A DNA stretch of 64,000 nucleotides from assembly GCF_003315205.1 (NCBI RefSeq), contig NZ_QNRR01000006.1, forward strand, positions 124,001 through 188,000, given 5' to 3'. This document shows positions 24,598 to 39,283 of this stretch, piece after piece. The DNA is from Roseimicrobium gellanilyticum. GTDB lineage: Bacteria > Verrucomicrobiota > Verrucomicrobiia > Verrucomicrobiales > Verrucomicrobiaceae. The notes under the pieces are model-generated. The model had not been told where the DNA came from and ran no database searches. It saw only the letters and a list, made by a program, of their open reading frames with translations. The translations under genes were made by a program, and so were the position numbers. Numbering within the stretch: position 1 is the stretch's first letter; every line of letters begins with the position of its first letter.

Positions 24598-24659
24598 AGT
24601 GCCGACAGCGGGACTCGAACCCGCACGGTGGTCGCCCACCAACGGATTTTAAGTCCGTT
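24598..24659. repeat. Left attachment repeat (tRNA-Leu 3' fragment)
   Basis: 62 bp identical to 39196-39257. It contains the anticodon arm, variable arm, T arm and 3' acceptor strand of tRNA-Leu(TAA) on minus, but no 5' half, so it is not a functional tRNA. It marks one boundary of the integrated element. Confidence 0.9.
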
Positions 24660-24723: not shown

Positions 24724-25947
24724 ATGGCAGCCACAAAGAAGACCGCGACCAAGAAGGGCAAACCGAAGCGCCGGGAGTGGCCCATCGTGAAGCGGACCAA
24801 ATACCGCAATGGCAGCATTGCCTACATGGTGGACACCCGTTTACGTGGCGAGGGCTCCCGTGTGTTCAAGCCGACGCTTGAGGAAGCTAACGAAGTGGCG
24901 CGTCAGGCTCGCATCCGCCGTCAGAACGAGGGCATTGGTTATTTCAGCCTGGAGGGCGATCAACGTCTCGATGCAGAGCGAGCGCTGGCGATGTTGGCAC
25001 CGTTCGGCAAGACTCTGGTGGATGCCGTGGAATTCTACGTCCCGCACCTGAAGGCGCTCCAATCCTCAAAAAGCGTGCTGGAAGCATCTGATGCCTACGA
25101 GAGCAACGCCACAGCCCGCAACCTTTCAAAGCCCCACCTCCGAGACATCCGGCTCCGCTTGGGGCGCTTCTCCGAAACCTTTGGCGATCGACTGATCGCA
25201 GAGGTGGAGGCCGAGGAGATCGACGAATGGTTGGATGACCTGGAAGTGGAGGCCGCCACGCGGAATGGCTACAGAAGGCACTTGTGCGCTCTCTGGGCGT
25301 TCGCTGGCAAGCGCGGGTGGTGCAATGCGACCGAGATTGAAAAGACCACGCTCCGCAAAGAAAACAGCGGGAAAACCGAGGTGGTGACGCCGGAGGAATG
25401 CAAGGCGCTCCTGGACCATGCCGACCCTGATATCCTTCCAGTGATCGCCGTTGGCGCTTTCGCTGGCTTGCGACGCTCTGAGCTCGGGCGGCTTCAGTGG
25501 GGCCATATCAACCTGCCGGAAAGGTTCGTAGAGGTGGTGGTAGCTGGAACCAACACGAAGTCAGCAAAGAGGCGCATCGTTGTTATGAGCGACAATCTCG
25601 CCGCGTGGCTGGCACCGTATGAGGGCAGGACCGGCTCAGTCTGGCCAGACCAGAAGGAACGCGGCAGGAGACTCCTGGACGAAGCAAAGAGGGCGGCGGG
25701 ATTCGGAACGCCTGGAACGGAGACTGACGAGGAGAAAGGGAAGGGGGTGGCGCTCATGCCATGGCGGCACAATGCGCTCAGGCATTCGTTCGCCAGCTAT
25801 CACCTCGCCAAGCACAACGACGCCGCGAAGGTTTCGCTGGAAATGGGACACACCAACTCGGTACTGGTGTTTAGACACTACAGGCAGCTAGTCCGCCCCG
25901 CAGATGCGGCGAAGTATTGGGAGGTGATGCCAACCGTCATCCCTTGA
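24724..25947 (+). CDS. Tyrosine recombinase / phage-type integrase
   Basis: A 407-residue site-specific recombinase that most likely integrates and excises the element at tRNA-Leu. A Lys-rich N-terminus (TKKGKPKRREWP) precedes an arm-binding region, a SAM-like core-binding domain (residues about 90-200) and the catalytic domain. Catalytic residues are visible: Arg in GLRRSELGRL (about 248), a Lys region near TNTKSAKRR, NALRHSFASYH (about 350), GHTN His (about 379) and Tyr in FRHYRQL (about 386). It begins 64 nt inside the left attachment repeat and reads inward. Its 3' end overlaps the convergent gene by 11 bp. Confidence 0.93.
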   Translation: MAATKKTATKKGKPKRREWPIVKRTKYRNGSIAYMVDTRLRGEGSRVFKPTLEEANEVARQARIRRQNEGIGYFSLEGDQRLDAERALAMLAPFGKTLVDAVEFYVPHLKALQSSKSVLEASDAYESNATARNLSKPHLRDIRLRLGRFSETFGDRLIAEVEAEEIDEWLDDLEVEAATRNGYRRHLCALWAFAGKRGWCNATEIEKTTLRKENSGKTEVVTPEECKALLDHADPDILPVIAVGAFAGLRRSELGRLQWGHINLPERFVEVVVAGTNTKSAKRRIVVMSDNLAAWLAPYEGRTGSVWPDQKERGRRLLDEAKRAAGFGTPGTETDEEKGKGVALMPWRHNALRHSFASYHLAKHNDAAKVSLEMGHTNSVLVFRHYRQLVRPADAAKYWEVMPTVIP

Positions 25948-26818: not shown

Positions 26819-27781
26819 ATGGCATGCCAAGGCGCAACGGGAATATCAAACCCTATTGCCATCCGCTGCATGGGATTCAAACACATAGAGGCCAGCATCT
26901 TCGCGCCGGTCACTCCCACTGAAAAGCTCGTGCTTCTCGTGCTGGCGTACCATTGCAATGACAAGGATCTCCGATGTCATCCAGGCTTTGGGCGGATCTC
27001 ACGCGCTTCCGGTTTGAGCACACGAGCCGTGTCCAAGACGATCAAGGCTTTGGAGAAGCAGGGCATCATCAACGTGATCCGAGGGACTGGCACCACGTCT
27101 TCAGCGTACCGCCTCCCCTTCCTTAACGCCCCATTTCCAGACATCGAGAAGGGGGATGAATGTTGTTCACCCCTGAACGTGGTTCATCCCACCCCTGAAC
27201 CAGATTCACCCCAGGGGATGAACGTCGTGCAGGTGGGGGATGAACGTGGTTCATCCAAACAGGAAGTTAACAGGAATATTGAAAAGGAAGATAACATGAA
27301 TCTTTTTCCCGCGTCGCTTTCAGCGGACGACGGGGGCGAGCAGGGAAAGCCTTTGAAATCTCATTCTTCAAAACCCAAGAAGGTGAAGAGTGAGGCAGAC
27401 CCAAGGCATCATGAGATAACATCCCAATGGGGATCGACCTACAGAGCGTTCCATGGTCAGAGCTATGTCTTCAATAAAAAGGACGTCTCGAACCTGAAGC
27501 GCTTCCTTGCCGACGATTCCAGCACCACCGCTGAGCAGTTCCTACACCGAGCACAGGAGGCATGGAAGCGAGCCAAAGAAGATCCCTACGCCCGCCAGTG
27601 TGCGAGTGCAGCCACCATCACCGGCTTATGCAGCCGATGGAATGACATCACTCTGGAGCTTCAGCGAGCACGTGGTGGGGGAAACGTGATGCGCTTCAAG
27701 AACGGACGTGATGATCGCGGCCAGCGTCCTGGCGAAATCAAAACAGACGTCACCGCAGACAAAATCCCAAGAATCAAATAG
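26819..27781 (+). CDS. HTH replication-initiator candidate, phage O-like architecture
   Basis: A 320-residue protein. The N-terminal domain (residues about 25-105) has APVTPTEKLVLLVLAYHCN and ASGLSTRAVSKTIKALEKQG, the HTH_36 fold found in phage replication proteins. Residues about 110-205 are a low-complexity Pro/Ser/Lys linker, and the last 110 residues form a helical domain with DPRHHEITSQWGSTYRAFHG. The linker-coding DNA contains five dyad iterons (27157-27253), as with lambda ori inside gene O. The next gene, 2 nt downstream, is an ATPase of the helicase-loader type. Initiation is therefore the likely role; similarity to O is architectural, not by sequence. ATG 26870 is an alternative start. 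Confidence 0.68.
   Translation: MACQGATGISNPIAIRCMGFKHIEASIFAPVTPTEKLVLLVLAYHCNDKDLRCHPGFGRISRASGLSTRAVSKTIKALEKQGIINVIRGTGTTSSAYRLPFLNAPFPDIEKGDECCSPLNVVHPTPEPDSPQGMNVVQVGDERGSSKQEVNRNIEKEDNMNLFPASLSADDGGEQGKPLKSHSSKPKKVKSEADPRHHEITSQWGSTYRAFHGQSYVFNKKDVSNLKRFLADDSSTTAEQFLHRAQEAWKRAKEDPYARQCASAATITGLCSRWNDITLELQRARGGGNVMRFKNGRDDRGQRPGEIKTDVTADKIPRIK
27150..27257. repeat. Five dyad iterons, candidate replication origin
   Basis: Five units of TGAA-N5-TTCA lie with TGAA at 27157, 27174, 27196, 27219 and 27241; the fourth has TGCA in place of TTCA. Most are embedded in GGGGA/TCCCC-like flanks. Four of the five starts are 22-23 bp apart, about two helical turns. They lie inside the initiator candidate gene, a typical place for phage-type origins. 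Confidence 0.65.
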
Positions 27782-27783
27782 CC

Positions 27784-28737
27784 ATGACACTCCTTACACC
27801 TGAGCAACAGAGAGAGGCCGAGGCGCAAGCGCATCGCTTCCCGTCCCACCTGACGTACCTTCAGGTTCACCAACGCCTGGAAGCGGAACGCAATCCGCCG
27901 CCACCTTCACCTGAGAAACCGAAGGCTATACCCATCAAATGCCGGGAGTGTGGTACCGAGATGGATGAGCAGGATGACGTATTGCGAGCCATCTGCACCA
28001 ACTTCATCTGTGAAGCCTGCGAGAAGAAGGCTGAAGAAGAGAAGCGGCTTGCATGGGAGAATCGCCCGTTGGCCCCATGGCCGAGCCTGTGGCCGGAGCG
28101 CGCCATCCTGGACCAAGAGAATTGCAGCGGGGAGCCGTTACGACTTGCCAAGGTAATCAATGGACTGCTATCCGATGGCGCGATGGTGGGCCTGATTGGT
28201 GACCGTGGGCGCGGCAAGACCGTCATGGCTGCAAGGATCGCCCAGTGGCGACGCGAGCGCCGCGAAGAGCCCGGCATCTACGTACGTGCTGCTGATGTAT
28301 TCTCATTGATCAAGGGGACATGGGAAAAAGGTCGCTCCTCAAGCAGGGAGACAGAGGAAAGTCTGATGAACCGATTCAGGGAGGCCGAGTTCCTTGTCAT
28401 CGATGAGATACAGGAGCGGACACTATCTGAATGGGAGAACAAGATACTAGTCAACGTGCTGGACCACCGTTACGCGGGCTTGCTACCCACTCTCATTGTT
28501 GGCAACCTGAGCACCGCAGAGCTGGCAACCAATCTCGGGCCATCCATCTCCGACCGCATGGCGCAGACTGGCGGCGTGGTGGAATGTGGATGGCAGAGCT
28601 TGAGACAGCCGGGCACGAAGGTGTACACCAAGGAGCAGCGCGAGAGTATCCGCTGGAGCCATTGCCCTTTCACCTCAACCGGAGGTCTTGGGTTTCGTGG
28701 AAGGGAGATGCAACTGCATGGAGGTTACCACGCATGA
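27784..28737 (+). CDS. DnaC/IstB-like AAA+ ATPase, probable helicase loader
   Basis: A 317-residue ATPase. Residues about 50-80 form a zinc-finger-like block (CRECG, then CTNFICEACEKK). Walker A is GDRGRGKT at 139-146 and Walker B is FLVIDEI. LPTLIVGNLSTAELATNLGPSISDRM matches the sensor region of DnaC/IstB proteins (typical NLS...L...R pattern). In phages and islands such proteins load the host replicative helicase at an origin. It begins 2 nt after the initiator candidate, forming an O/P-like replication pair. The last 30 residues are not conserved-looking. Confidence 0.85.
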   Translation: MTLLTPEQQREAEAQAHRFPSHLTYLQVHQRLEAERNPPPPSPEKPKAIPIKCRECGTEMDEQDDVLRAICTNFICEACEKKAEEEKRLAWENRPLAPWPSLWPERAILDQENCSGEPLRLAKVINGLLSDGAMVGLIGDRGRGKTVMAARIAQWRRERREEPGIYVRAADVFSLIKGTWEKGRSSSRETEESLMNRFREAEFLVIDEIQERTLSEWENKILVNVLDHRYAGLLPTLIVGNLSTAELATNLGPSISDRMAQTGGVVECGWQSLRQPGTKVYTKEQRESIRWSHCPFTSTGGLGFRGREMQLHGGYHA

Positions 28738-29522: not shown

Positions 29523-29906
29523 ATGAAACTATTCTCGAAATCCTTCTGGTCCAAGCGGAGTGCGCCCGCCAAAACCTCCCCCACTCCTGAACCCAAGCAG
29601 GAGCCGACACCCGCACCCGTGGACATCAGCAAGCTTCACGGGAAAGCCAAAGCTGCTGCCATCCTGAACGAGCGCATGCGCACCGCTGACGCTCGCGCCG
29701 CTCTGGAGCGCGCCGAAGCCTCCACCAAGGCGGAGAAGCAGGAGCAGGCCCGTACGAAGCTCAATGAGCACGTGGTCAAGCAGGGCCAGCTCTCCACGAA
29801 GCGGGCCCGCGAGTCCTACTTCCGGCTTCACCGTGCCGACATCGACACAGCGATCAGGGAGTCCGGCCAGAACAGCAACACGTGGTACGCAACCTTCCTT
29901 GCCTAA
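29523..29906 (+). CDS. Unknown protein with the shared 50-residue C-terminal domain (copy D)
   Basis: A 127-residue Lys/Ala-rich protein. It begins MKLFSKSFWSKR, a motif shared with the gene at 30764 (MKILTKQFWKRF). A Pro-rich linker (residues about 18-33) and a helical region follow. The final 52 residues start ARTKLNEHVV and end NTWYATFLA. They align without gaps to the ends of the proteins at 30764, 32149 and 33020. It lacks a Shine-Dalgarno sequence; the leader is GACCCC directly before ATG. It lies just upstream of the S49 protease gene. Function unknown, possibly structural. Confidence 0.62.
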   Translation: MKLFSKSFWSKRSAPAKTSPTPEPKQEPTPAPVDISKLHGKAKAAAILNERMRTADARAALERAEASTKAEKQEQARTKLNEHVVKQGQLSTKRARESYFRLHRADIDTAIRESGQNSNTWYATFLA

Positions 29907-29912
29907 CTTCCC

Positions 29913-30746
29913 ATGCGCACCCTGCCCCATTTTTTCACCAAGCTTTTTGCCGAACCGCTGATGCTGCATGCACCGGCCCGCGCAGGATTCGAGGCCTACC
30001 TGCTTGGCCAGATGAGCACGGACGCCTCACGCCCTCCCGTCCGCATGGAGGGAGAGGAGAAGGCGTGGCGCATGAAGCGTGTGCTCGAGAAGCGCGGACG
30101 CCTCGCCATCGTGCGCATCTACGGCGCTATCGACAAGCAGCTCTCGACGCTGGAAATGGAGTGCTTCGGCGGGTGCGATCTCGCGGACGTGGACCGCGCC
30201 CTTGCTGCTGCCGAGGCTGACAAATCCGTGGACACCGTCATGCTGGAGTTCAACTCCCCTGGCGGCAGCGTGACCGGCGTAGCGGAGACAGCAGCACGCG
30301 TGGCGAACCTGAGGAAGACCAAGGAGGTTCACGCTTTCACGGAAACAATGTGCTGCTCTGCGGCCACGTACATCGCGAGCCAAGCGGATCATGTGGTGGT
30401 CACCCCTTCGTCTACCAACGGCTCCATTGGCGTCTACATGGCGACCCTGGACGAATCCCGCGCCTTGGAACTTGCTGGCATCACGGTCAACTTGATGAAG
30501 GCCGGAAAGTTCAAGGCCATGGGTGCCAGCTTCAAGCCGTTGGAGGATGAAGAGCGGAAGATGATGCAAGCCAGCGTGGACCGCATCCATGCCGATTTCA
30601 AAGCCGCTGTCACGAGCCTCCGCCGCGTGAAACCTGAATCCATGGAGGGTCAATGGTTCGATGGGCGGGAAGCTCTCGCCTGCGGACTCGTGGACGAAAT
30701 CACCAACATGAGCGCCGACGAATACGCGCTCGCCATCGCCTCCTAA
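29913..30746 (+). CDS. S49-family serine protease, phage head-maturation type
   Basis: A 277-residue ClpP/crotonase-fold protease. Core motifs: VRIYGAIDKQ, MLEFNSPGGSVTG (oxyanion region), ETMCCSAATYIASQADHVVV (catalytic Ser near residue 148), STNGSIGVYM and LMKAGKFKAMGASFKPL (catalytic Lys). The end WFDGREALACGLVDEI is typical. There is no signal peptide or membrane helix, unlike SppA, so it resembles the prophage proteases that mature capsids (lambda gpC type). No capsid gene is recognisable next to it. Its likely substrates are the neighbouring unknown proteins (inference). The leader is CTTCCC without Shine-Dalgarno. Confidence 0.85.
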   Translation: MRTLPHFFTKLFAEPLMLHAPARAGFEAYLLGQMSTDASRPPVRMEGEEKAWRMKRVLEKRGRLAIVRIYGAIDKQLSTLEMECFGGCDLADVDRALAAAEADKSVDTVMLEFNSPGGSVTGVAETAARVANLRKTKEVHAFTETMCCSAATYIASQADHVVVTPSSTNGSIGVYMATLDESRALELAGITVNLMKAGKFKAMGASFKPLEDEERKMMQASVDRIHADFKAAVTSLRRVKPESMEGQWFDGREALACGLVDEITNMSADEYALAIAS

Positions 30747-30763
30747 TACACCCCAGCACACCA

Positions 30764-31621
30764 ATGAAGATCCTTACGAAACAATTCTGGAAAAGGTTCA
30801 GCAGGCAAGCCGCCGCTATTGCGCCGGTTGCGCCTCTCGTGGCCAGCACACCACCGCCCGCACCCGCCGCTTCCACGCCTCCACCTGCACCCATTGCCAA
30901 ACCTGCACCCACACCCGCCCTTATGACCACTCCGCCCACCATACCGAAAGCGCCCGCTGCATCGACGCCACCCCCGGCGAAGTTCGACGTGCTCAAGGAA
31001 TCAAGCCTGTTGACCCGTGAGCAGTTCGACGCCCTGGGGCACGCCAAGCAAGCCGAATTCATCCGGAATGGCGGCTCTCTCGTGCGTGAGGTGAAGCACG
31101 GGAACGCGAACGATGTAGCGGCAGAGTCAATCGTGCGCATGCAGGATCCTGATGACGTTGCTGTGGCGTTGCTGAAAGGGTTCGGCTTGTCTATGGCTGA
31201 TGCCACCCCGCACATGATCGCATGGGGCGCGAGCCACCACGACAAATCATTCAGGGCCTACGACGATGCCCGTTGCAAAGAAGCACTGGCGAAGGCTGAA
31301 AAGTCTAGCCGTCCCGTTGGCTATCTGCTCCCCGGCGCGGCTCCGGTGAACGACGAGGCACGTATCAGCCGCAGAAAGTCAGAGCCATTCAAGCAACCCG
31401 GCGAGGTCGCGGAACCTGAGCGCCGTGCCGCTGAAGATAAGCTGGTCGCCATGCTCACCGAGTTCGAGGCCATCAACAATGAAGAACTGAGGCGCATCTG
31501 GTGGGAACGCAACCACGAGACTGTGGAGGACCACGCCAAGAACGAAACAAAGCGTTCACGCAATTGGATCGCATTCTTCGTCACACGGATCACTGGCATC
31601 AACACCCACATCACCCGCTAA
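30764..31621 (+). CDS. Unknown protein with Pro/Ala linker and shared C-terminal domain (copy A)
   Basis: A 285-residue protein. N-terminal MKILTKQFWKRF is like that of the 29523 gene. Residues about 15-75 are a Pro/Ala/Thr-rich linker (TPPPAPAASTPPP). A middle domain has LLTREQFDALGHAKQAEFIRN, a type of segment seen in phage structural or assembly proteins (weak resemblance). The 50-residue shared domain begins AEDKLVAML and ends NWIAFF, followed by a 13-residue extension. It sits after the S49 protease, so it may be a scaffold or protease substrate. TAATACACCCC overlaps the previous stop codon. Confidence 0.6.
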   Translation: MKILTKQFWKRFSRQAAAIAPVAPLVASTPPPAPAASTPPPAPIAKPAPTPALMTTPPTIPKAPAASTPPPAKFDVLKESSLLTREQFDALGHAKQAEFIRNGGSLVREVKHGNANDVAAESIVRMQDPDDVAVALLKGFGLSMADATPHMIAWGASHHDKSFRAYDDARCKEALAKAEKSSRPVGYLLPGAAPVNDEARISRRKSEPFKQPGEVAEPERRAAEDKLVAMLTEFEAINNEELRRIWWERNHETVEDHAKNETKRSRNWIAFFVTRITGINTHITR

Positions 31622-31644
31622 CCACCTCCACCCTGATACACCCC

Positions 31645-32040
31645 ATGCCCTACGATAAAGAGCAACCCATCCTCACTACGAGTGAAGTAGCCGCGCTTTC
31701 CAAAGTGGAACTCGACACGCTCACTTGCTTCAACAACTTTGTCACGGGTGACCCACCGGGCACGACCCCGGTTGAGCCTGCCCGCGTGGAAAACGAAGCC
31801 GTGATGATCTACGAAAGCGCCAAGGGTATCCGCACCATGGACCAGGAGCGCGAGCTTGCAGTTCTCAAGGCCAAGTTTGTCGGCTTCCACGAGGCGCGGG
31901 CGCTTCCATCTGGCATCTTGAAGGTGCAGCTTTTGAGCTTCAAGGATGGATTTGTGCATGTTGCGCACCCCTTCGTGAAGGACGGCCCAGTCGAGTTCTT
32001 CGGGCGCAACGGTGGAGGCTTCTACCGCATGCCTATCTGA
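31645..32040 (+). CDS. Unknown element-encoded protein
   Basis: A 131-residue protein starting MPYDKEQPILTTSEVAALSK. It has a helical N-terminus and a beta-rich C-terminal half with KVQLLSFKDGFVHVAHPFVK and EFFGRNGGGFYRMPI. It lacks the shared 50-residue domain and any recognised motif. The start directly follows a TGATACACCCC motif. It is part of the same-direction run of small genes from 29523 to 35256. Confidence 0.55.
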   Translation: MPYDKEQPILTTSEVAALSKVELDTLTCFNNFVTGDPPGTTPVEPARVENEAVMIYESAKGIRTMDQERELAVLKAKFVGFHEARALPSGILKVQLLSFKDGFVHVAHPFVKDGPVEFFGRNGGGFYRMPI

Positions 32041-32048
32041 CAATTTGC

Positions 32049-32121
32049 CCTGCACCCGTTTGTGCAGGTCATCGAGCGCCCCGCCAGATTGAACATGGAA
32101 AAGTAGCCCGGCGGGGCGCTC
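32049..32121 (+). other. Two strong hairpins in the intergenic space
   Basis: CCTGCAC/GTGCAGG (32049-32068) is a 7-bp stem. A perfect 12-bp stem pairs 32074-32085 with 32110-32121 around a 24-nt loop. Neither is followed by a T-run, so they are not simple terminators. They may be processing or stabilising structures between two element genes. Confidence 0.5.
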
Positions 32122-32148
32122 ACCACATCTTATACACCTCAGACCGCC

Positions 32149-32385
32149 ATGAGCACCGTTTACCTTGAACCACCACTTGAGGAACGCGTCACCGAAGCAG
32201 AGGTCGCAGAAGCCCGCCGCCAGGCAGCAGAAGACCGGCTGAAGGAATTGCAGGTCATGGCGTCCGCACTCAACACGCGGAGCGCACGGAAACAGTTCTG
32301 GTCGGAATACGACGAGGAGATTGTCCACCTCTCCGCCATCGAGACAAGAAAAGGAACCCGGTGGATCCACATGTTTTTACCATGA
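32149..32385 (+). CDS. Small protein with the shared C-terminal domain (copy B)
   Basis: A 78-residue protein that is little more than the shared 50-residue domain: a 26-residue lead (MSTVYLEPPLEERVTEAEVA and on) and then AEDRLKELQV through TRWIHMF plus two residues. It shows that the domain can stand nearly alone. Its stop overlaps the next ATG by ATGA (32382-32385). A TTATACACCTC motif lies 8 nt upstream of the start, with no Shine-Dalgarno. Function unknown. Confidence 0.62.
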   Translation: MSTVYLEPPLEERVTEAEVAEARRQAAEDRLKELQVMASALNTRSARKQFWSEYDEEIVHLSAIETRKGTRWIHMFLP

Positions 32386-32987
32386 GCAGCGCACAAGGCC
32401 CACAATACCCCGGCACCCACCACAAGTTTGGCGAGGAGGCCCGTTTCCGTGAGAACACGGTCGCACAGACGCCGCTTCCAACGCGGCACCGCATGTTCAC
32501 CAAGCCTTTGCCTGCTGGTCGTGTGCTTGAGTTGGCCCCAGCACCTCCACCACCGCGCCCCAGGCATCCCTTTTACGTGAGGAGATACCGCCTCAGGCAC
32601 AACCGGAACATCATCCAAGTTGCTCCAGGGACAATCAATGGCATCTACCCGACCCTTGAAGGGATTCCAATCTCAGAAGAGCCGCACCTGGAAGTCGATC
32701 TCTTTGATTGCTGGGTCTACCTGAAACTAAAATTCTCTCTCCTTGTGGTCCACGACCACGTCAACAATGCCACGCTGACGAGCGCAACAATCGTGACGGA
32801 TGCGCAAATCAACCAGCCGTACGGCCCGAACAACACAGGCGAGTATTATATCCTGCTCGCTGTCTTCAAGAACTATCAGTTAGTCGGCCAGACGACTGTG
32901 ACAAACTTGGTTGGAGAAGTCACCGGAATTCCTGACGGGAGCGCGAGAGGACGACTGGAGGTGAATGCGGTTGTCAGCGTGGTGTAG
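32382..32987 (+). CDS. Unknown beta-rich element-encoded protein
   Basis: A 201-residue protein. The first 65 residues are Pro-rich and basic (APAPPPPRPRHPFYVRRYRLR). The rest looks like an all-beta domain (VDLFDCWVYLKLKFSLLVVH, then GEYYILLAVFKNYQLVGQ) ending GRLEVNAVVSVV. That pattern suits a virion decoration or fibre protein, but no family is recognised. The start at 32382 is set by the ATGA overlap with the preceding small gene. Confidence 0.58.
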   Translation: MSSAQGPQYPGTHHKFGEEARFRENTVAQTPLPTRHRMFTKPLPAGRVLELAPAPPPPRPRHPFYVRRYRLRHNRNIIQVAPGTINGIYPTLEGIPISEEPHLEVDLFDCWVYLKLKFSLLVVHDHVNNATLTSATIVTDAQINQPYGPNNTGEYYILLAVFKNYQLVGQTTVTNLVGEVTGIPDGSARGRLEVNAVVSVV

Positions 32988-33019
32988 GGCCGGAAGCCAT
33001 CAAAGTATTCATTCCTTCC

Positions 33020-33454
33020 ATGAACCTTGAATCTCCCCAACTCATCGCGGCCCGCGCTTCACTGGCGACTTTCTGCACCACCACGGCGAGAGAGACGGCG
33101 CAGATTGCTGCGGTCACGTACTTCGTGAACAGTGATGAAGCCCTCATCCTGCTTCGGGAATGGGCACAGCTTCCACACGTGCGGTGCATCCGCCATTGCA
33201 TCCCCGGTGAAGAAGAGCTTCAGGCGGCAATCGCGAAGCTCTCGGAGCGGCCCGACAATTGCTTGCCCTTCGCACGGGAGGAGCGCAGGCAGCAGGCAGA
33301 GAAAAAGCTAGGGCAGCTTCACCACTGCTTCAGGGCGCTCCTGCATCCCGATTTGGAAAAGGAGTTCTGGACCCGGCATGAACGGGAGATCCAGATCCTC
33401 GCCCGTGATGAAAGCATGCTTGGTCAGAAGTGGATTGAGAAATTCAAACGATGA
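33020..33454 (+). CDS. Unknown protein with the shared C-terminal domain (copy C)
   Basis: A 144-residue protein. The N-terminal 90 residues are helical with several Cys and His (CTTTARETAQIAAVTYFV, then HVRCIRHCIPGEEELQAAI). After FAREERRQQ the shared 50-residue domain runs from AEKKLGQLHH to QKWIEKF plus two residues, ending the protein exactly as in copies B and D. Its stop overlaps the next start by ATGA at 33451, so the two are coupled. Confidence 0.62.
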   Translation: MNLESPQLIAARASLATFCTTTARETAQIAAVTYFVNSDEALILLREWAQLPHVRCIRHCIPGEEELQAAIAKLSERPDNCLPFAREERRQQAEKKLGQLHHCFRALLHPDLEKEFWTRHEREIQILARDESMLGQKWIEKFKR

Positions 33455-35256
33455 TCTTCCCAACCCCAACAGCTCAAGACCAAGCCGCGCTCCACTGGAC
33501 AAAGCAGGTTGATCCGTGTGAAAACTGCTGCGGCCCATGGCTCGGCTCAGTCCTGATTGCATCCCGGCGAGCGGCACTCGATACAGACCCGGAAATATCT
33601 CTTGGCGCAGACCAACCAGCCTACGAATGCGTCGTAGACATTGAACTTGGCGGATGCGGTGAAGAAAATCCATCGTGCGAGGAAGGTTTCGAAGATGCGG
33701 TTGAAGTTGCGACCAGCGAAAGGGACGACGCCCAGGTGATTTTCGACGACAAGACCTTGGAGCAGGAATTGTTGAGCGAGGCTGTCGGAGACCGGAATAC
33801 TGAGGCGGATTCAGCGTTGGCTGAGATGCAATCAGCCCGAATCGCTTACAGCCAGCTTCAGAACGCTCACACCTCAGCGCGAATCAAAGAAGAGACATTC
33901 ACGCGTAGGAACGACCCGGCTGGTGTGGCCGCAGCCCTTGCAGAGCAGGCGGCGATTCAATCGCAGCTCTCAGATCACATCTACCACGACAAAAACAATC
34001 TCTATATCACTGCCAGAACGAATGTTGGAGACGCCTACGCTGAATTTTATGAAGGACAACGGCAACTCGACCTTATCCAACGCGACCTTGATGTCGCAAT
34101 CTACAAACTCGCCTGCGCTGAGCACAATCTTTCCGTGGCCACAGGGGAAGATGTTGAGATGTGGTTTGTGTCTGGTCGAGACGGAACGATTGCCCACCTC
34201 ACGGCAGATGAGAGGCGGGACGGGTTCTATCGGCTGGAATTCGACATGGCAGAGCGGAGTGGAGAGGATGGAATATCACAACGCATCCCGCTTCCCTCTG
34301 GAACAACAAACATCCGATTTGAGTGGAGAGAGGTGTTCATACCGGCAGATGGGAGTGAGTACATTTACGGCGAGGAACCTTTTACGGAAGATGTGGAAGT
34401 TGAGTCGGGCACACAAGTTGCACGGACTGCCGACCACTATATTGCCGCTCCAGAGATTGAGGGGACCTATCGCATTGTGACCATGCCAGGCAGGGCGCAG
34501 GTGAGCATAGTTAGTGAAGACTTGCATGCCTCGAAGGTGAAATATGGTTTCCCGGCATACATCCACACTGGCACGACTGCGCAATGGTACGCCACGGAAA
34601 CCGCCTCCGGCCTCAACACTGAGACGGGCGTTTCATTCTCTGGCTCCCAATCAGTGGACGAGTTCTTCAATATCGAAAGCTCCCTGAGTGCCTCAGTCAC
34701 CGCGCACCCTGAACGCGTGTCAGGAGTTGGTGGCAATCCATTCGGCAGCAAGTCCCGCCAGTACACCGCCACGCAAAGGCAGTGGCCGGATGGAATGGTG
34801 ATGACGTTGAGCGGCCTTGTCTCCACCGATAGCATTACCCAGCCCGTGGACTCGCACCTCGATTCCGCATGGGGAACTCCGCTCCCTGAGAACCTTGCAC
34901 CTTCGACCATGACCAACCCTCATCGCAGGCTGTTCATTGGGGAGACGGCATACTCCAGGCTGCGGAGGAGGTTCAAGCTTCAGGTCACCATTCCATCAAA
35001 CCGCCCGTTTCCCGTCACCATTGAGGTGAAGTACGACAAGAAGACATACACCTATGCTACAAATAGTTGGGTTGTTGAGGAGGAGTCGCACGAGGTGACT
35101 ATTCTCACTGGAGAGACAACGGCAATTGAGGATGAGTGGACAGAGATCGATCCGATGGATGGAACGATTGTGGTGATGGCCAACGTTCGCGCAGAGCCGC
35201 ACCTGCACCTCTGGCATCTCGGTGTAGATGTCAGCATTGCGCCCCACGAGGACTAG
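33451..35256 (+). CDS. Large unknown protein with coiled coil and beta-rich C-terminus
   Basis: A 601-residue protein, the largest of the element. Residues 20-70 contain CENCCGPW and a CVVDIELGGCGEENPSC cluster. Residues about 75-225 form a long coiled coil (SERDDAQVIFDDKTLEQELL and on). The remaining two thirds are beta-rich, with several strand-turn-strand units such as FRLEW-like and YGFPAYIHTGTTAQWYAT segments. No signal peptide or enzyme motif is present. The coiled-coil plus beta layout resembles phage fibres or baseplate-like proteins, but that is only structural intuition. It ends the gene block; the next gene is on minus. Confidence 0.6.
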   Translation: MIFPTPTAQDQAALHWTKQVDPCENCCGPWLGSVLIASRRAALDTDPEISLGADQPAYECVVDIELGGCGEENPSCEEGFEDAVEVATSERDDAQVIFDDKTLEQELLSEAVGDRNTEADSALAEMQSARIAYSQLQNAHTSARIKEETFTRRNDPAGVAAALAEQAAIQSQLSDHIYHDKNNLYITARTNVGDAYAEFYEGQRQLDLIQRDLDVAIYKLACAEHNLSVATGEDVEMWFVSGRDGTIAHLTADERRDGFYRLEFDMAERSGEDGISQRIPLPSGTTNIRFEWREVFIPADGSEYIYGEEPFTEDVEVESGTQVARTADHYIAAPEIEGTYRIVTMPGRAQVSIVSEDLHASKVKYGFPAYIHTGTTAQWYATETASGLNTETGVSFSGSQSVDEFFNIESSLSASVTAHPERVSGVGGNPFGSKSRQYTATQRQWPDGMVMTLSGLVSTDSITQPVDSHLDSAWGTPLPENLAPSTMTNPHRRLFIGETAYSRLRRRFKLQVTIPSNRPFPVTIEVKYDKKTYTYATNSWVVEEESHEVTILTGETTAIEDEWTEIDPMDGTIVVMANVRAEPHLHLWHLGVDVSIAPHED

Positions 35257-36003: not shown

Positions 36004-36121
36004 TAATGCGCTTGTGAACTGCGGGAGTCCGCAGGAAGCAAAAGGCCCGGCCAGTGTTTGCACCACCGACCGAGCCCGCATGTAACAATCCTACACCGAG
36101 GATCATCAACAATGAGATCGT

Positions 36122-36316
36122 ATGTCAAAAGAGCTAGTGCGCAAGCTGAAAGCCGCCCGCGAACTGGTGGGCGAAACGCAGGTAGTGTTCGCCACAAGGC
36201 TGGGCGTGCCAACACGCACGCTGATAGGCTGGGAGAACGACCAGCGAACACCCCGAGGCCTCGCCCTGGAAGCCCTCAACGCAAAGCTGGACGCCATCCT
36301 AAAGGGAAAGAAGTAA
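36122..36316 (+). CDS. Cro/XRE-family HTH repressor
   Basis: A 64-residue DNA-binding protein. LKAARELVGETQVVFATRLG, then VPTRTLIGWENDQRTPRG is a standard XRE helix-turn-helix with recognition helix around TRTLIGWEN. It has no sensor or dimerisation domain beyond the last helix. It is the first gene of a tight four-gene run (36122-37318) and sits 119 nt after two tandem palindromes that are its likely operators. Confidence 0.82.
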   Translation: MSKELVRKLKAARELVGETQVVFATRLGVPTRTLIGWENDQRTPRGLALEALNAKLDAILKGKK

Positions 36317-38144: not shown

Positions 38145-39062
38145 TCATAAGCCCCCTCCAGCGCTGCTGGTGGAACCTTTTGGTGGCCCCTCTTCACTCT
38201 TTGATGCAGCATCATTCTTCAGAATGATGCTCAGTGCATGCTTCAGTTCGGCTTCGTCCTTCAAAAGTTGCGTCATGCGATCCGACAGCTCCGCAAGAAC
38301 CACGCGAATGCTCGTTGCTAAAGCGAGACAGTGTTCATCAGCTTGAGCGTGGACACCATCACTCAGGGCGGAGTGAAGAAGCCCGAGTGGGTTGTGGCCG
38401 TCTATGAGCAGGCTTTGAGGTATGTATGGCTTAGCCATTTCCATAGCCTTCGCGAATTGGTCCTCCGTAGCCGCTGCACGGAGTTTCTGAACATCGCTAG
38501 GTGAAGTTTGGAGGCGCTCCGCCACATCCGCGATTCTGGTGATGATCCGAGCTTTTTGATTCTCAACGACACGGCGATAATAAATGAAAGCGCCGATGCC
38601 TAATCCTTGGTTTTCACACCTCCGACCCTTCAAGAAAGCGTCGCGGTCCGGGCCTGCTAGACTGATCAACCGGGCCGGGGTCGGCGGACCGAACGGGGGA
38701 GACTCTCCGTACTTGTACGCAGTGCCCCCATCATTGTGGTTGTTTTCCTGAAGTGCCAGCGAGAAGGTTTTGGTGAAGACTTGGCAGTTCGAACATCGGT
38801 AGATGAAATAGCTGTTCCTCAGGCCTTCCACGGACAGGAAAGGCGGCGTACTCGCAGGTCTAAACACTCGTACGCCGTTGCATTTCTCATTTGGGCAGTG
38901 AAGCTGAATTTCTGGTCCTATGCAATAACGTGTGGTCCCTTGGTGTGAACCCACGATGTTTGATATGCCTCTCGTTTGGTTGGGTGGGCACGACTCAAGG
39001 AACTCAGCGAAGGAAACTTCATCCTCGTTCGGGGAGCCTGGAGATAAAATCGTGGCGCTCAT
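38145..39062 (-). CDS. Zinc-ribbon cargo protein of unknown function
   Basis: A 305-residue protein near the right end of the element. It has a zinc-ribbon-like region (LHCPNEKCNGVRVF, then YRCSNCQVFTKTF; residues about 55-100), then GRRCENQGLGIGAFIYYRRVVE and a long helical C-terminal half. The combination of N-terminal zinc ribbon and the helical QGLGIGAFIYYRRVVE core recalls DUF4145-like proteins, but I am not certain of the family. Its position at the element edge and on the opposite strand suggests accessory cargo, perhaps defence-related (inference). The start at 39062 is preferred; 39089 is also in frame. Confidence 0.65.
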   Translation of the reverse strand: MSATILSPGSPNEDEVSFAEFLESCPPNQTRGISNIVGSHQGTTRYCIGPEIQLHCPNEKCNGVRVFRPASTPPFLSVEGLRNSYFIYRCSNCQVFTKTFSLALQENNHNDGGTAYKYGESPPFGPPTPARLISLAGPDRDAFLKGRRCENQGLGIGAFIYYRRVVENQKARIITRIADVAERLQTSPSDVQKLRAAATEDQFAKAMEMAKPYIPQSLLIDGHNPLGLLHSALSDGVHAQADEHCLALATSIRVVLAELSDRMTQLLKDEAELKHALSIILKNDAASKSEEGPPKGSTSSAGGGL

Positions 39063-39195
39063 ATGCGTTCTACTGCCAAAAACTGCCAATTTTCAGTGTA
39101 TTTTCGTGTGTTTTGGTGTGTCTTTATGCGTCTTGGTGTATGAGCTGCCAAAGGCGATTACCAAGAGGTATGTGTTCAGTGTGAGCGACTTAGAG

Positions 39196-39257
39196 AGTGC
39201 CGACAGCGGGACTCGAACCCGCACGGTGGTCGCCCACCAACGGATTTTAAGTCCGTT
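39196..39257. repeat. Right attachment repeat (within tRNA-Leu)
   Basis: 62 bp identical to 24598-24659, overlapping the 3' half of the intact tRNA-Leu gene and two bases beyond. It marks the right boundary of the integrated element. Confidence 0.9.
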
Positions 39258-39283
39258 GCGTCTACCGGTTCCGCCATGTCGGC
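39198..39283 (-). tRNA. tRNA-Leu (anticodon TAA)
   Basis: An 86-nt gene on minus. The acceptor stem GCCGACA pairs with TGTCGGC, followed by discriminator A. The anticodon stem ACGGA/TCCGT encloses loop CTTAAAA, giving anticodon TAA. A long variable arm (GGTGGGCGACCACC region) marks a class II tRNA, as expected for leucine. The T loop GTTCGAGTC is standard. CCA is not encoded. The gene is the intact copy at the insertion site of the element. Confidence 0.95.

Follow-up and report, generated by a model that had tools for sequence, protein, structure and literature searches.

Why do four proteins of a single small integrated element end in the same segment of 50 residues? This question is raised by a 64,000-nucleotide stretch of the genome of Roseimicrobium gellanilyticum, a member of the Verrucomicrobiota (contig NZ_QNRR01000006.1 of assembly GCF_003315205.1, positions 124,001 to 188,000; hereafter, the window), in which the open reading frames (ORFs) that start at 29523, 30764, 32149 and 33020 encode proteins A, B, C and D, respectively. 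All four belong to an element of 14,598 bp integrated at a tRNA gene and, to judge from its sequence, the first ~35 residues of the shared segment appear to descend from the C-terminal tail that capsid scaffolds have in S49-type Verrucomicrobiota phages. The explanation favoured here, which we consider reasonably probable, is that of a satellite-like element whose proteins bear a scaffold-derived, coat-binding tail and steer the capsid assembly of a helper phage.

The four ORFs are all present, and the 50-residue C-terminal segments of their products align with one another with no gap, just as a first-pass annotation of the window had proposed. The segments correspond to (i) residues 76-125 of protein A (29748-29897); (ii) residues 223-272 of protein B (31430-31579); (iii) residues 27-76 of protein C (32227-32376); and (iv) residues 93-142 of protein D (33296-33445), always on the forward strand. 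The joint alignment score of 294 was reached by none of 5000 shuffles and, in the fixed register, each pairwise score was reached by 0-1 of 2000. A free ungapped search with the full-length proteins recovered the register of B, C and D (0 of 200 shuffles each), three copies which share 14-17 identities over the 50 positions and which, by sequence, are clearly homologous. Copy A, the most divergent of the four, keeps the register and was weaker in this free search (1 of 200 shuffles for A-C; 5 of 200 for A-D), the top match of the A-B pair being the Pro/Ala linker and not the domain.

Ala1, Leu5, Trp46 and Phe50, which had been singled out as constant or near-constant, are indeed invariant across the four window copies. 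The basic residue expected at position 21 is found in three of them but not in protein D, which has Glu. Similarly, there are two-residue ends after Phe50 (A, C and D) and one 13-residue extension, as described in the first-pass annotation, but the extension assigned there to copy A belongs to protein B (the lettering was evidently ordered otherwise). Proteins A and B are the two that share, as reported, an FW motif at the N-terminus and a Pro/Ala linker. The domain has no family match in Pfam, PHROGs or NCBIfam, and no significant match was obtained by PDB sequence search or by Foldseek (PDB and viral models). In the AlphaFold2 model of protein C, helices span residues 10-39, 44-64 and 69-76, with a predicted local distance difference test (pLDDT) value above 90 in the core; the domain is thus predicted to be a helical hairpin with a short third helix.

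The domain proteins lie in a compact cluster of the element. Protein A (29523-29906, forward strand, as are all the genes of this cluster) combines the FW motif, the Pro/Ala linker and copy A. It is followed by a gene (29913-30746) for an S49 head-maturation-type protease, which had been correctly recognised between the first two domain proteins (PF01343, 1.8e-29; phrog_53, 2.4e-66). This protease has 277 aa and no scaffold extension; its Ser149 and Lys199/Lys201, which we take to be catalytic from general knowledge of the family, are invariant in four element copies (alignment A2). A tRNA-Ser called by ARAGORN inside the protease gene (30174-30269) was rejected as probably false, as it had no Rfam support. 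Next comes the scaffold-like protein B (30764-31621), with the FW motif, the Pro/Ala linker, a mid-protein motif 'F..L....F...GG.L', copy B plus the 13 residues, and a homologue in the sister species (6e-54). Protein C (32149-32385), which consists of little beyond the domain, also has a sister-species homologue, while protein D (33020-33454) has an N-terminal part of unknown kind and no match in PADLOC.

The limits of the element are given by an exact 62-bp direct repeat that corresponds to the 3' part of tRNA-Leu(UAA): attL at 24598-24659 and attR at 39196-39257, the latter within the intact tRNA-Leu gene (39197-39283, reverse strand). The length of 14,598 bp follows from these repeats. A tyrosine integrase gene lies next to attL (24724-25947, forward strand; PF00589, 6.4e-12; phrog_1, 2.3e-33). 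When the main ORFs of this element and of two relatives were compared with Pfam and PHROGs, none matched a portal, terminase or major capsid family, although families absent from these libraries would escape such a search. A compact integrated form with its own integrase and intact attachment (att) sites, as seen here and in four relatives, is what a satellite would have and, within the families in Pfam and PHROGs, the same is true of the lack of a full detectable virion gene set (capsid, portal and terminase).

The profile search suggested as a check in the first-pass annotation retrieved proteins only in similar integrated elements: in the order, 5 of 289 genomes gave a match, every one of them inside a tRNA-integrated element of 14.6-15.7 kb. 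Scanning the genome collection with the S49 protein alone produced no matches, an alignment query being needed to find relatives. Weak class-wide matches to the domain in other genera were discarded, as most had internal stops and poor scores. Three of the elements carry an S49 protease ~53% identical to that of the window: L033 (IMG/VR entry L053), whose genome matches Verrucomicrobium spinosum (species name inferred), and L034 and L035, from Verrucomicrobium sp. BvORR034 and BvORR106. These Verrucomicrobium elements measure ~15.0 kb at tRNA-Ser and 15.5-15.7 kb at tRNA-Gln; in the three of them, S49 is immediately followed by a gene whose partly Pro/Ala-rich product has a domain copy at its C-terminus, and in L033 and L035 this product ends two residues past the final Phe. 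Finally, in a sister species of the window genus (genome G001), tRNA-Tyr is the integration site of a 14,600-bp element. It encodes orthologues of B and C, immediately upstream of its tape measure gene, and the tail-region protein also seen in the window; an S49 gene was not found in this element.

Taken together, the five elements come from two genera, are near-equal in length (14.6-15.7 kb), have intact att repeats at four tRNA genes and intact ORFs, and share a common core in which the integration and replication modules are swapped. A tape measure gene was recognised in every element except that of the window. These tape measure proteins of 565-660 aa are encoded at L033:10905-12884 (reverse strand), L034:7006-8880, L035:10636-12510 (reverse strand) and L137:10549-12243, that of L034 matching phrog_9959 (1.9e-63). 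The genes of the element are under purifying selection: the ratio of nonsynonymous to synonymous substitution rates (dN/dS) across related elements is ~0.06 for S49 and 0.24-0.47 for B-like proteins and, versus the sister element, 0.34 for B and 0.20 for C (with dS near saturation).

Where might such a domain come from? In the complete S49-type phages and prophages of the Verrucomicrobiota group, the scaffold is encoded between S49 and the major capsid gene, in some cases as part of the protease chain and in others as a protein of its own. In the related elements, this place after S49 is taken by the domain protein. Many of these scaffolds have tails of the form '..LLERFRSITNPAEQTAFWQGLSADQKNQIL' or '..AELFAEYNALTNANDRAAFYAKHKVAMGL', and a tail similar to the domain also ends separate scaffold proteins that adjoin the capsid gene (L048 and L042). 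A domain profile of seven rows, compared by hhalign with a 441-column alignment of S49 scaffolds, picked the C-terminal tail with a score of 32.0, the next place scoring 11.4; in a run with stale output removed, 300 column-shuffled tails reached 15.4 at most. Each subset by itself also fell on the scaffold tail, be it the four copies of the window (26.2) or the three from related elements (23.9), and the score rose to 35.6 with the sister copies added. The 35 matched columns align ungapped with the trimmed scaffold tails and, in segment numbering, Leu8, Phe12, Ile/Leu15, Arg21, Phe24, Trp25 and His28 are common to domain and tails, each of them in most, not all, of the sequences. A sequence pattern common to 4 of 10 scaffold tails was devised after inspecting those same tails and serves as illustration only. 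The predicted structures are also similar: the L048 scaffold tail is modelled with helices at 61-70 and 74-87 (pLDDT 83-86), and the hairpin turns at the same residue in this model and in that of protein C, the second helix beginning 3 residues after the equivalent of position 15. In addition, the mid-protein motif of protein B and its relatives is the terminal motif of scaffolds L047, L049 and L081 (hhalign Prob 96). Since no major capsid gene was detected in the elements, protein B does not lie directly before one and is termed here scaffold-like, not scaffold.

Several observations weigh against a scaffold origin of the domain and a role in helper capsids. In a plain hidden Markov model (HMM) search, no single scaffold tail was significant (best E-value 0.6-0.8 among thousands of ORFs), nor did an HMM of the tail alone significantly retrieve the element copies; Foldseek, likewise, gave no significant match. 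In the first shuffle run, 1 of 200 shuffles scored 131.5, an event whose cause was not established and which did not recur in 300 later shuffles. The last ~15 residues of the domain, with W46 and F50, have no counterpart in the scaffold tails and are element-specific, and the scaffold of L052, the closest phage contig by S49, ends in a different tail. As for the helper, three related elements share their genome with GpA-terminase prophages, which are possible helpers, but a GpA-type terminase was not found in the window's own genome, hence no obvious helper there, and none was found in the sister genome either. Besides, the S49 protease is missing from the sister element and, therefore, would not be essential to the scheme. 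In any case, the link to scaffolds is suggested by profile-profile comparison, register and gene position, and the homology between domain and scaffold tail is well supported but not proven, because plain single-profile searches are non-significant. By eye, no such tail was seen on the S49-type scaffolds of phages from other hosts (phage 21, AcaML1, Mae-JY30, NV1.1.1 and Escherichia phage pEC-M719-6WT.1), and thus the resemblance is limited to the Verrucomicrobiota-type phages examined. The initial view that the domain falls outside known families stands as regards curated families and fails as regards its first ~35 residues, which resemble scaffold tails.

The satellite SaPI1 is ~15 kb in size, and the window element resembles it in being a ~15 kb element with an integrase and no capsid genes detected. 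The SaPI1 protein CpmB binds the coat protein of phage 80alpha through a C-terminal segment that also occurs in the scaffold of this phage, and competes with the latter, which results in small shells (PMC5644958). In both cases the likeness between element and phage scaffold lies in a C-terminal segment, although coat binding is inferred here; furthermore, the RIIK motif of CpmB is absent from all the domain copies, and in the window element the tail is on four proteins, not one, and is accompanied by an S49 protease. An element of ~15 kb with no detected shell, a head protease and several scaffold-tail proteins fits the CpmB precedent. By analogy with it, the tail of A-D would direct these proteins to the inner surface of the helper procapsid, protein B would act as a competing internal scaffold, and A, C and D would be accessory or smaller binders. 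The domain proteins and the S49 protease would jointly divert the assembly of helper capsids, probably towards a smaller shell able to hold the ~15 kb genome, and the yield of the helper on which the element would depend would be reduced.

Other systems offer partial parallels. The S49 protease shares its family, phrog_53, with lambda-type gpC/Nu3 and the phage 21 capsid protease/scaffolding protein (~30% identity to phage 21), whose scaffold is encoded with or behind the protease; however, the protease of the element is short, the scaffold-like parts are carried by proteins other than the protease, a capsid gene does not come next, and the scaffold tail of phage 21 is not recognisably similar to the domain. 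Capsid-forming phage-inducible chromosomal islands (PICIs), which encode their own shell, resemble the proposed role of the element in that a satellite controls or provides capsid assembly, but an own shell was not detected in the window element. The same likeness holds for satellite P4, whose Sid protein forms an external cage (PMC6893505). The phage-inducible chromosomal island-like element (PLE) satellites of Vibrio have an external scaffold, TcaP (PMC10945586), as well as their own tape measure protein and, as reported, chimeric tails (PMC12987554). The PLE satellites, too, supply their own assembly proteins, and the tape measure genes of the four Verrucomicrobiota elements other than that of the window agree with such chimeric tails (PMC12987554) and are compatible with a tail length set by the satellite, as in PLE. 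Unlike TcaP, to which it is likened by description and not by sequence, the scaffold proposed for the window element would act inside the shell, tethered by its tail, and would be linked to an S49 protease.

A different possibility is that the domain is a general helical adaptor, for instance a tail-assembly or tape-measure chaperone, whose likeness to scaffold tails arose by convergence. Convergence is easy for short amphipathic hairpins, the plain HMM searches were non-significant, and the domain proteins of the sister element lie just upstream of its tape measure gene. However, two separate subsets of copies pick the same scaffold tail in the same register, and the window element has domain proteins though no tape measure gene was recognised in it, so that we regard an adaptor as unlikely. 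The first-pass annotation had suggested a tag that targets proteins either to a particle or to the protease. The likeness to phage scaffold tails speaks for the particle; a tag by which the S49 of the element would receive or cut the proteins that bear it is not favoured and seems to us quite improbable. Certainly, domain proteins flank S49 in the window, one lies directly behind it in three related elements, and some phage S49 proteins bear a similar tail in the same chain. But in the sister element, which has no S49 gene, B and C still have their domains intact, and this makes such a tag less likely (even if the protease of the helper could still be the partner), and the similar phage tail is also on the separate scaffold proteins beside the capsid gene in L048 and L042.

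Least probable of all is that the element is a decaying prophage and its four domains functionless duplicates of a scaffold gene. This would explain why head- and tail-type genes are present while capsid, portal and terminase are undetected, but it is made less likely by the uniform size of the five elements, their intact att repeats and the selection acting on them, with dN/dS far below 1; their intact ORFs and common core argue in the same direction. The satellite-like element with coat-binding tails thus remains our preferred explanation.

Contig L052 may also inform on the origin of the cluster. Its S49 protease is ~50% identical to that of the window and among the closest to it. The neighbouring genes appear to encode a terminase, a portal, a major head protein and a tape measure protein; PHROGs confirmed the head and tape measure assignments. 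Behind the L052 tape measure gene (region L052:11094-14542) there is a homologue of the window protein encoded at 32361-32987 (forward strand), a tail-region protein whose start is probably 32382 or 32487 and which matches the L052 gene 13201-13764 (phmmer, 3e-7) and the sister element (1.8e-23). The window element may have drawn its S49 and this tail-region protein from L052-like phages.

The remaining genes of the element comprise, on the forward strand, (i) a replication-initiation (O/DnaD-like) protein (26819-27781; phrog_1032, 3e-13); (ii) a DnaC-like helicase loader (27784-28737; phrog_50, 2.8e-31); (iii) a 130-aa protein of unknown function kept in the sister element (31648-32040; 3.5e-51); (iv) a 601-aa protein (33451-35256) with no family match and no relatives detected, probably a tail-type structural protein to judge from its position and Cys-containing N-terminal part; and (v) an XRE-type helix-turn-helix (HTH) regulator (36116-36316), present, with its upstream DNA (36034-36116), in all five elements. 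Besides S49, the stretch 36034-36316 is the sole one that can be aligned as DNA with the Verrucomicrobium elements (69-78% identity), and the DNA upstream of the XRE gene could be an operator or other cis site. The regulators of the element are this XRE protein and HTH_17 genes, none of them assigned as AlpA/Stl. Beside attR, a 314-aa protein (38145-39089, reverse strand; phrog_25239, 2e-74, of unknown function; no PADLOC match) is a possible cargo gene.

A literature search returned no paper describing phage satellites of Verrucomicrobiota, only passing co-mentions, most subscription journals being outside its reach. Mimicry of a scaffold by a satellite is already known from CpmB; in the window element it would extend to four proteins. 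If the explanation proposed here is true, the CpmB principle, known for a single protein, would become that of a modular capsid address, and a scaffold-derived tail could help to spot satellites where whole-gene homology fails. In any case, the domain is a small, testable candidate coat-binding unit. Tentatively, and with rather more doubt than confidence, a hitherto undescribed family of Verrucomicrobiota satellites may have put one scaffold-derived, coat-binding tail on several unrelated proteins as a general capsid address, by which a custom small particle would be loaded or built from the helper shell, with a protease and tail parts of its own.

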